Origin: Armatimonadota bacterium
GTDB lineage: Bacteria > Sysuimicrobiota > Sysuimicrobiia > Sysuimicrobiales > VGFF01
Length of the DNA: 36,690 nucleotides
Direction: 5' to 3'
NCBI GenBank assembly: GCA_016868955.1
Contig: VGFF01000002.1
Coordinates: 1-36,690 of the forward strand
Shown here piece by piece: positions 18,953-21,821 of the stretch. Made by a program: the position numbers and the translations under genes. The notes beneath the pieces were generated by a model that saw only the letters and a program-made list of their open reading frames with translations, ran no database searches and was not told the DNA's origin. How positions within the stretch are numbered: position 1 is the first letter of the stretch; each line of letters begins with the position of its first letter.

Positions 18953-19777
18953 ATGCGGAGCCCCGCCGCCGTCCGGCATGCGGACGTGGCGATCACCGGC
19001 CGGATCGAGGTCCGCGATCTGCGGAAGCGGATCGGCGACAAGGACGTGCTGCGCGGCGTATCCCTCACGGTCGAAGCCGCGGAAACGGTCGTCATCCTCG
19101 GTCCCAGCGGCTGCGGCAAGAGCGTCTTGCTAAAGCACCTCGTCGGATTGCTCCGACCGGACACCGGCGAGGTCCGCTACGACGGCCACTCGCTGGCGGC
19201 GCTGTCGGAAGGCGCGATGGAGGCGTTGCGTACGCAAATCGGGATGGCTTTCCAGAGCTCGGCGCTCTTCGACTCGCTGACCGTCGCCGACAACGTGGCG
19301 TTTCCGCTGCACCGCCATCGCCACCTCGAGGAAACCGCGATCGAGCGGATCGTCGCCGAGAAGCTCGAACAGGTCGGGCTGGCAGGAACCGAACGGCTGA
19401 TGCCGGAGGAGCTCAGCAACGGCATGCGCAAGCGCGTTGGCATCGCGCGGGCATTGGCCCTGAATCCCAAGGTAATCTTCTATGATGAACCCACGGCCGG
19501 CCTCGATCCGGTGACGGCAAGAACCGTGGACGGAGTGCTGAAACGGGTGCAGCGAGACATGCACTCGACCGCCATCGTGGTTACGCACGACCTCATGACG
19601 GCGTTCTCGGTCGCCGACCGGATCGCCGTCATGCAGTCCGGCGCGTTCGTCGAGCTCGGAACGCCCGAAGCGATCGAGGCGTCCGAGGACGAAGCCGTCG
19701 TCGAGTACCTGCGCACCGGCGTCCCGCGCCGCCCTCGGGACGCCGGCAATACGACAGGCCCGGAGGCCGGACGATGA
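18953..19777 (+). CDS. MlaF-type ABC transporter ATPase
   Basis: Walker A LGPSGCGKS, signature ELSNGMRKRVGIARALALNPKVIFYDEPTAGLDPVTA. Confidence 0.95.
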   Translation: MRSPAAVRHADVAITGRIEVRDLRKRIGDKDVLRGVSLTVEAAETVVILGPSGCGKSVLLKHLVGLLRPDTGEVRYDGHSLAALSEGAMEALRTQIGMAFQSSALFDSLTVADNVAFPLHRHRHLEETAIERIVAEKLEQVGLAGTERLMPEELSNGMRKRVGIARALALNPKVIFYDEPTAGLDPVTARTVDGVLKRVQRDMHSTAIVVTHDLMTAFSVADRIAVMQSGAFVELGTPEAIEASEDEAVVEYLRTGVPRRPRDAGNTTGPEAGR

Positions 19778-21141
19778 GAACGGAAGCGAAGATCGGCTTC
19801 TTCGTCGTGATCGCGGTGATCCTCTTCCTTGGACTGTTCGCGTTCCTCGGTCGAGGTCTGCTCCAAGAGCCGGGTTACCGTCTGGACATCCTGTTCGCGA
19901 ACGGCGAGGGCACCGCGCCCGGCGCACCGGTCACGATGGCGGGCGTGCAGATCGGCACGATCCGGTCGATATCTCTGACTGCCGACAACCAAGTGCTCGT
20001 CGTCGCGCGCGTCCGCCCCGGCGTCGAGATCCCCGTCGGGTCCCGGTTTCTCATCGGTTCGACGACGCTGCTCGGCGGGCGCACCGTGCAGATCGTGCCG
20101 GGCACGCCGATCCGCGGCTACTATAGCGCCGGCGCCCGCATCCGCGGCGAGGTGCCGCCGACGATCGGCCAGCTCTTCGAACGCGTCGCCCTCGTCGCCG
20201 ACGACCTTCGCGACGCGATCGCCGACGCGCGCGTCGTGTTGAACACCACCAATCGCGCCGTCGAATTGGTCGGGCGAACGATCGACTCCGTGAACGCCTT
20301 GGCCAGCGACGAACGCCTGCGCAGGTCGCTGCTGCGCAGCGTGCAAAACGTCGAAGCCGCGACGGCCCGCTTCGATCGGATCGTCTCGTGGACGGGCGCG
20401 CCCGTCCACGAGACCGCCGAGAACTTCCGCGTCATGTCGCGGGACCTGGCCGCTCTGGCGGCTCAGCTGCAGCGATTCGGAGATTCGGTCGTCGGCGACG
20501 GCGAGGTATCGCGCCAGATCCGCACGACGGTGACGTCGATCGAGTCGACGGCGCGGCGCATCGACGAGATGACGCGCACGCTGCAGGCAGGCCTGATCAA
20601 TGAGAAGCAGATGGGCGAGGTACGGGGGCTCATCGCCGACACTCGCAAGACCGTGCAGCAGGCCGGCGAGACGTTGAAGCAAGCCGACACGGCGATCGAT
20701 CAGGTCGCCGGCGTGGTCCGGCACACGACGACAGCGATCCCCATGTTGCCGAGCCTGCGGTTCACGTACGAGCTGTGGTGGGACAGCGCCAGCGCCCTAC
20801 GGCACGACATCGACGTCTGGGGCGCACGCGGTCAGCCGCGCTACTACCGGTTCGGGATCCACGACCTCGGGCGCGGGAACTTGCTGCAGGTCCAAGCCGG
20901 ATTCCGGCTGGACGATGCGCTCGGATGGCGGCTCGGCATCGTCGACTCGCAAGTGGGCATCGGCCTGGACTACCAACTCGCGCCGCGGTGGACGACCATT
21001 TTGGACTTGTACAACTTCAACCGCCTGACGCTGAACTTCGCTTCGTTCTACGAGTTCCAGCAAGGGTTCTCGCTGTCGCTGCACGTGCGCAACATCCTCA
21101 TCGCGCCGAGCGTCGGCGTCGGGCTGCAGTACCGCTACTAG
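19774..21141 (+). CDS. MlaD/MCE-domain protein with long helical region and C-terminal beta-barrel-like domain
   Basis: N-terminal TM, MCE core LDILFANGEGTAPGAPVTMAGVQIGTIRSISL; C-terminal ~120 aa of alternating strands ending VGVGLQYRY; ATGA overlap with mlaF. Confidence 0.9.
   Translation: MRTEAKIGFFVVIAVILFLGLFAFLGRGLLQEPGYRLDILFANGEGTAPGAPVTMAGVQIGTIRSISLTADNQVLVVARVRPGVEIPVGSRFLIGSTTLLGGRTVQIVPGTPIRGYYSAGARIRGEVPPTIGQLFERVALVADDLRDAIADARVVLNTTNRAVELVGRTIDSVNALASDERLRRSLLRSVQNVEAATARFDRIVSWTGAPVHETAENFRVMSRDLAALAAQLQRFGDSVVGDGEVSRQIRTTVTSIESTARRIDEMTRTLQAGLINEKQMGEVRGLIADTRKTVQQAGETLKQADTAIDQVAGVVRHTTTAIPMLPSLRFTYELWWDSASALRHDIDVWGARGQPRYYRFGIHDLGRGNLLQVQAGFRLDDALGWRLGIVDSQVGIGLDYQLAPRWTTILDLYNFNRLTLNFASFYEFQQGFSLSLHVRNILIAPSVGVGLQYRY
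20383..20414. repeat. 32-bp perfect palindrome inside mlaD CDS
   Basis: gtctcgtggacgggcg|cgcccgtccacgagac, 16-bp arms, zero spacer; peptide SWTGAPVHET reads on both strands. Confidence 0.98.
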
Positions 21142-21160: not shown

Positions 21161-21199
21161 AAAAAACGCGACGGCCCCGCGTTGCCGCGGGGCCGTCGC
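21161..21199 (-). terminator. Intrinsic terminator of the Lys-rich small gene
   Basis: Perfect 14-bp stem GCGACGGCCCCGCG (21168-21181)/CGCGGGGCCGTCGC (21186-21199), 4-nt loop; minus strand continues G-TTTTTT (21161-21166). Confidence 0.88.
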
Positions 21200-21223
21200 A
21201 ACCGATCCGTCAGGAAGAAGGTG

Positions 21224-21321
21224 TTACTTCTTCTTCTTGGCGGGGGCCTTCTTCGCCGTCGTCTTCTTGGCGGAGGTGGACTTCTTGCGGGGGCCTTCTT
21301 GGCCGCCTTCTTCATCGCCAT
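21224..21321 (-). CDS. Small Lys/Ala/Pro-rich basic (histone-H1-like tail) protein with apparent 1-nt deletion
   Basis: AAAGGAGGAA RBS, ATG 21321; reads MAMKKAAKKAP, then shifting frame at 21287-21291 gives KKSTSAKKTTAKKAPAKKKK*; 98 nt = 33 codons minus 1 nt. Confidence 0.65.
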
Positions 21322-21449
21322 GGCTCGGTTCCTCCTTTCAACAAGATTGATTGATCTTTTACGCTACAGTAAGCAAATTTCCTGCTCCTCGCGCAAAAAC
21401 TTTTATTTGCCACCTCGAAATTCGCCCGGTCACTGTCGCGGGACTCGAT

Positions 21450-21821
21450 TCACTCCGGTGCGTCCGGCAAACGAGCGGCGTGATACATCGCGATGCCGCG
21501 ACCGGCGACCGCCGACGACAGGTACCCGAGCACGAACAGGAAGATCGCTTTCATCAAGAGCTGCAGGCTCACGTTCAGATCGGACGCTGCGGCGTTCGCG
21601 TTCTCACTCGGCACCGGCGAGGTCGCCGTCGGCACACCCAAGCGCGCCATCGCCGGTCCACTGAATTCCTGGTACGCAGTGAGGAACACGAAGATGAGCA
21701 GCCCCACGCCGATCACGAAGACGAGCAGCCCCAGCAGACGTCCCGGGCCATCCGCCCCTCCACGGTCGCCGTTCCCCGCGCCTTGAGGCCTCGTCGCTAC
21801 GTCGTCCACGCACCTCTCCAC
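21450..21821 (-). CDS. Small hypothetical membrane protein (two TM segments)
   Basis: GLLVFVIGVGLLIFVFLTAYQEF... and LQLLMKAIFLFVLGYLSSAVAGRGIAMY; codon usage and position fit a coding gene, family not recognised. Confidence 0.6.
   Translation of the reverse strand: MERCVDDVATRPQGAGNGDRGGADGPGRLLGLLVFVIGVGLLIFVFLTAYQEFSGPAMARLGVPTATSPVPSENANAAASDLNVSLQLLMKAIFLFVLGYLSSAVAGRGIAMYHAARLPDAPE

Follow-up and report, generated by a model that had tools for sequence, protein, structure and literature searches.

Genomes of one bacterial phylum carry, almost throughout, a gene for a lysine-rich microprotein of a kind for which we found no prior description in literature searches, and this family is our main result. 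One copy lies in the window, the whole 36,690-nt stretch analysed here, which makes up the whole of contig C2; the draft genome it comes from totals 2.1 Mb in 218 contigs and is 89.5% complete. Here the frame is one base short. The microgene probably represents, in broken form, a monocistronic gene that occurs across the phylum and encodes a tiny Lys-rich protein free of acidic residues; error is slightly favoured as the cause of the break.

A lysine-rich microgene across the phylum

We surveyed 43 genomes of the phylum for combined RBS and Lys-codon patterns and then checked the translations. Apart from the genome of the window, 38 of 42 yielded intact Lys-rich ORFs of 10-30 aa, 44 in all (for example MAKKKAKKKK, MAKKKAAKKKKK, MATKKKAAKKGKKR, VAKKAKKAAKKKGK and MAAKKAAKKATAKKTSAKKTAKKAARKKR). 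All 44 are open, none contains Asp or Glu, their lengths vary by whole codons, and the relatives' peptides have net charges of +7 to +14. Of the four genomes in which no copy was recovered (G005, G029, G041, G042), three are 64-72% complete. Terminator hairpins of unrelated sequence occupy the same place 3' of the microgenes. The window product shares the protein traits of the family in its restored frame only: it is Lys-rich, lacks Asp and Glu, falls within 10-32 aa, has small or Lys residues after the start and ends in Lys/Arg. A strong Shine-Dalgarno sequence, a terminator of its own and the promoter-like GCAGGA element are likewise present in the window, and the only departure is the interrupted frame, which is open in the 44 others. 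The microgene loci appear prone to assembly breaks, as contigs end in or beside the gene in G030 (C112, C117) and G033 (C25, C68; L327-L330).

A DNA search for orthologs in the relatives (families labelled f2-f7, genomes G0xx) recovered an intact microgene behind mlaD in 11 genomes of three families (f3, f4 and f5). The f3 family has it in all seven sampled genomes (G002, G008, G012, G016, G020, G024, G028), with mlaD proteins only 41-50% identical; in G003 of f4 it starts with GTG, and the f5 genomes G013, G017 and G035 carry a shorter form of 11-14 aa at the same place. The preliminary description would have discarded the gene had relatives lacked a K/A-rich codon pattern here; they carry intact Lys-rich genes instead. 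Upstream of the microgene lies a threonine aldolase gene, identified by reading the sequence, in the examined f3 (L007, L012) and f4 loci and in the f5 genome G025. G002 lacks that arrangement and shares with the window the 123-aa upstream protein, whose C-terminus (GRGIxMYHAARL..PE) also precedes its microgene.

Conservation of the ORF exceeds that of its surroundings. All 90 nt of the mini ORF are identical (100%) when G016 is compared with either G020 or G024, whereas mlaD is 82-83% identical in the same two pairs and the 85 nt further upstream are 45-54% identical; at the mlaD identity level, the chance of 90 unchanged sites is about 2-5e-8. Substitutions within families show a synonymous excess (11:6, against 20% synonymous expected, p=8e-5). 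Because intact orthologs, conservation above the flanks, synonymous excess and whole-codon length changes concur, the frame is, on sequence evidence, a real coding sequence.

The element upstream of the gene appears specific to it. A search of 12 genomes for the pattern GCAGGAAAW N9-16 CGWAT gave seven matches, of which four stand immediately 5' of the microgene, and the reversed control pattern gave none; the window version reads GCAGGAAATTTGCTTACTGTAGCGTAA. With about one match per genome, a genome-wide promoter is ruled out, and the element looks dedicated to the microgene rather than housekeeping. Two copies of a GGTRGCGAAC box, one preceded by AAGGATTTT, lie upstream of the f5 microgene (L247, L248), and f2 leaders have one copy together with a conserved GACGGC/GCCGTC hairpin; boxes and hairpin are possible regulator sites.

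Judged by architecture, all copies likely descend from one common ancestor. Against this, Lys/Ala sequences of low complexity may evolve more than once, and the microgene of f2, f7 and part of f5 occupies other loci, each conserved within its family. All 43 sampled genomes of the phylum belong to one order, and the phylum would fit Sysuimicrobiota (CSP1-3), which is described as comprising a single class with a single order, as known mostly from hot springs, and as formerly placed with Armatimonadota (PMC11604079). Comparable mini ORFs were found in a few of 94 sampled genomes outside the phylum, as Lys-rich frames of 11-29 aa behind GGAGG: VKKKAAKKKKK and MKKKATKKKKKK in G125 (L315, L316), MAEKKKATKKAAKKKPAKKATKKTAKKKK in G066 (L317) and MPTRKRKKARKKGKRR in G061 (L322). 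Matches to plasmids reflected only a likeness in AAG/GCC composition to Lys/Ala tails in actinobacteria.

The window copy and its missing base

The microgene unit of the window lies between mlaD and the gene for the 123-aa protein, beyond which follows the gene for S-methyl-5'-thioadenosine phosphorylase on the minus strand (Table 1). It reads, on the minus strand, ATG at 21321, then ATGGCGATGAAGAAGGCGGCCAAGAAGGCCCCCGC|AAGAAGTCCACC...GCCCCCGCCAAGAAGAAGAAGTAA, ending at 21224 with a TAA that stands in the shifted frame. The break falls after codon 11, and addition of one base restores MAMKKAAKKAPAKKSTSAKKTTAKKAPAKKKK (32 aa). Unrestored, frame 0 runs for 174 R/P-rich codons through the terminator (stem 21200-21167, z = -4.7 against shuffles) and antisense to mlaD as far as 20797, its next stop lying about 370 nt beyond the T6 tract. 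The part downstream of the break cannot start by itself, as its frame contains no ATG, GTG or TTG upstream of the break and, on reading the sequence, is closed by a TGA located 19 nt 5' of the microgene ATG. The preliminary description had recognised this Lys/Ala-rich minus-strand frame, one base short with RBS and terminator kept, as a compact gene for an H1-tail-like peptide, and the intact orthologs in several families bear it out.

Table 1. Coordinates of the microgene and neighbouring features in the window
Feature	Position	Strand	Basis
Lys/Ala-rich microprotein gene with 1-nt deletion, 32 codons with frame restored	21224..21321	-	sequence and intact syntenic orthologs
Shine-Dalgarno sequence AAAGGAGG	21331..21338	-	block AAAGGAGGtACCGAGCCATGGCG conserved in nearest family
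Promoter-like element GCAGGAAATTTGCTTACTGTAGCGTAAAAG	21356..21385	-	related element upstream of microgene in other families
Intrinsic terminator, 15-bp stem and T6	21161..21200	-	folding versus shuffles
Missing-base site, GC|AAG versus GCC AAG in relatives	21286..21287	-	ortholog alignments
C5 run, complete, not the deletion site; absent in relatives	21289..21293	-	sequence and ortholog alignments
mlaD (MCE-family protein), convergent neighbour	19774..21141	+	same arrangement in f3, f4 and part of f5
123-aa protein upstream of microgene, no Pfam match	21450..21821	-	ORF and profile search

The position of the deletion had to be revised. It had been assigned to the C5 run, itself placed at 21287-21291 and in fact found at 21293-21289. 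The broken motif copy is GGCCCCCGCAAG and the downstream copy GGCCCCCGCCAAG; both have five C, and they differ in the CC pair before AAG. Aligned orthologs read GCCACCGCCAAG (GCC ACC GCC AAG) at the motif. Since the run is complete with respect to the downstream copy and the CC pair is short with respect to the orthologs, the deletion is not in the run: these alignments show that the CC pair at 21287 lacks one of its two C (21287/21286 in the ortholog comparison). It follows that reads with six C would be the wrong test for an error.

Origin of the break

An assembly or consensus error is, in our estimate, the somewhat better bet for the break. We slightly prefer it over a real recent loss because the gene is nearly phylum-wide and the window copy is both the only one detected in the draft and the only broken one seen. 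The fragmentation and incompleteness of the draft were also counted toward error, and the draft contains another clean 1-nt frameshift, in a gene for a rhomboid-like membrane protein on contig C8 (L183, ~8000). The latter came from a tblastn comparison with G002 that covered up to 127 kb of the draft, some of it antisense, and gave 12 candidates. Ten of these were scanned against Pfam; most lacked a match and are apparently antisense shadows, and among those with matches were the rhomboid-like case, a real 1-nt frameshift, and a pair of adjacent ABC genes. Clear frameshifts are thus infrequent, about one in roughly 100 kb compared, so that error is no strong default. A scan by codon statistics was uninformative, since antisense ORFs of this GC-rich genome spoiled its training set.

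Real recent inactivation by a 1-nt deletion, with frame-0 translation leading to a nonstop product, is a serious competitor, though the less probable of the two. The scarcity of other frameshifts in the draft speaks for it, as does the location of the deletion in a CC pair rather than in one of the long homopolymers where sequencing errors typically fall; the intact state of RBS, promoter-like element and terminator is also what a fresh mutation would leave. On the other side, the gene is intact in nearly all the relatives and no second copy was seen here, which would make the loss costly if the gene matters. Were the deletion real, ribosomes reading frame 0 would meet no stop before the terminator and would run off the end of the mRNA, and the gene would be dead. 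In the assembled sequence, with the base missing, no peptide of this kind is readable.

A second piece of the locus occurs on contig C26 (L002 1430-1617; G000:C26:5071-5258). This block contains the stop region of the microgene, the terminator with its loop inverted and the last 12 mlaD codons, about 95% identical by eye to the window, and is joined on one side to an 85-aa secreted K/A/P-rich ORF and on the other to a 5'-truncated fasciclin gene. In G013, the fasciclin gene, with signal peptide, is a single ORF beside a MerR-like gene. The join looks like an assembly chimera or a recombination, hints at strain mixture at the microgene locus and was likewise counted toward error.

That a programmed -1 slip on the C5 run connects the halves of the gene, as had been suggested from the GCC CCC directly before the break, is hardly credible: with the deletion outside the run the idea has no basis, the relatives carry GCCACCGCC or GCAGCTGCC at this position, with neither a C5 run nor an interruption, and so need no shift, GCC CCC GCA would not let both sites re-pair well one base back, and the second C5 of the same gene, in the downstream motif copy, sits in frame, where a slip would damage the product. 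A programmed frameshift is recognised by a slippery site and an interruption that are both conserved in relatives, and here neither is.

Possible role and comparison with known systems

The microprotein probably works as a cytoplasmic polycation with RNA, DNA or ribosomes as its binding partner. Its short transcript would be strongly translated, and the peptide, having no signal peptide, would stay in the cytoplasm as a disordered chain and act as an encoded polycation, binding RNA, ribosomes or DNA in the manner of an H1 tail or a polyamine; its composition makes binding to nucleic acids plausible. We advance only tentatively, as a proposal rather unlikely to hold in full, that a polylysine-like micropeptide, in its shortest form only 10 residues long (MAKKKAKKKK), is made from a dedicated promoter throughout the phylum, much of whose sampled membership derives from hot springs, and acts as a general stabiliser of nucleic acids or ribosomes, an encoded polyamine. 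If so, polylysine-like micropeptides would be a wider class, given the similar genes seen beyond the phylum.

We think it distinctly unlikely that the product is instead an additional tiny ribosomal protein in the manner of bTHX or bL37. Those proteins share with it the 20-30 aa scale, the strongly basic charge, the expected high expression and the ease with which annotation misses them. Nevertheless, the microprotein is far more repetitive than either and is not encoded beside ribosomal genes; a PDB search with a 29-aa ortholog gave no match to solved chains at E<=10, which carries little power for a low-complexity query. Less probable still is a small regulatory RNA whose ORF is incidental or secondary. 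The short transcript, promoter-like element, strong terminator, structured f2 leader and high DNA conservation could suit such an RNA, but covariance models gave no Rfam match, the synonymous excess and codon-wise length changes point to translation, and the conserved block in the orthologs centres on the Shine-Dalgarno sequence and start codon.

Conserved genes of 10-14 codons fall under usual gene-calling limits, and so a gene present nearly throughout a phylum would escape annotation. Provided that they are expressed, these peptides would rank with the smallest conserved proteins of the cytoplasm and allow a direct test of whether encoded polycations serve bacteria in stabilising RNA, DNA or ribosomes. 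The interrupted window copy is a reminder that small genes should be compared with relatives before recoding is proposed.

By composition, the closest resemblance is to AlgP of Pseudomonas, Hc2 of Chlamydia and other H1-like proteins, which are likewise low-complexity sequences of AKK, AAKK or PAKK type, acid-poor, disordered and expected to bind nucleic acids. The microprotein has their Lys/Ala/Pro-rich repeats, but no H1-like profile match: profile searches gave no Pfam match and no significant NCBIfam match. AlgP and Hc2 are well over 100 aa long, several to more than ten times the 10-32 aa of the microprotein, which, unlike them, would be a stand-alone tail with no other domain. The restored 32-aa peptide weakly matches the Lys/Ala/Pro stretch of Rv3852 (H-NS-like, NF050153; E 0.071, 13.6 bits against a cut-off of 100), and the remainder of Rv3852 is absent here. 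Polyamines, including the branched ones of thermophiles, may share with the microprotein a polycation role in stabilising nucleic acids; in contrast to them, it would be a ribosomally made peptide.
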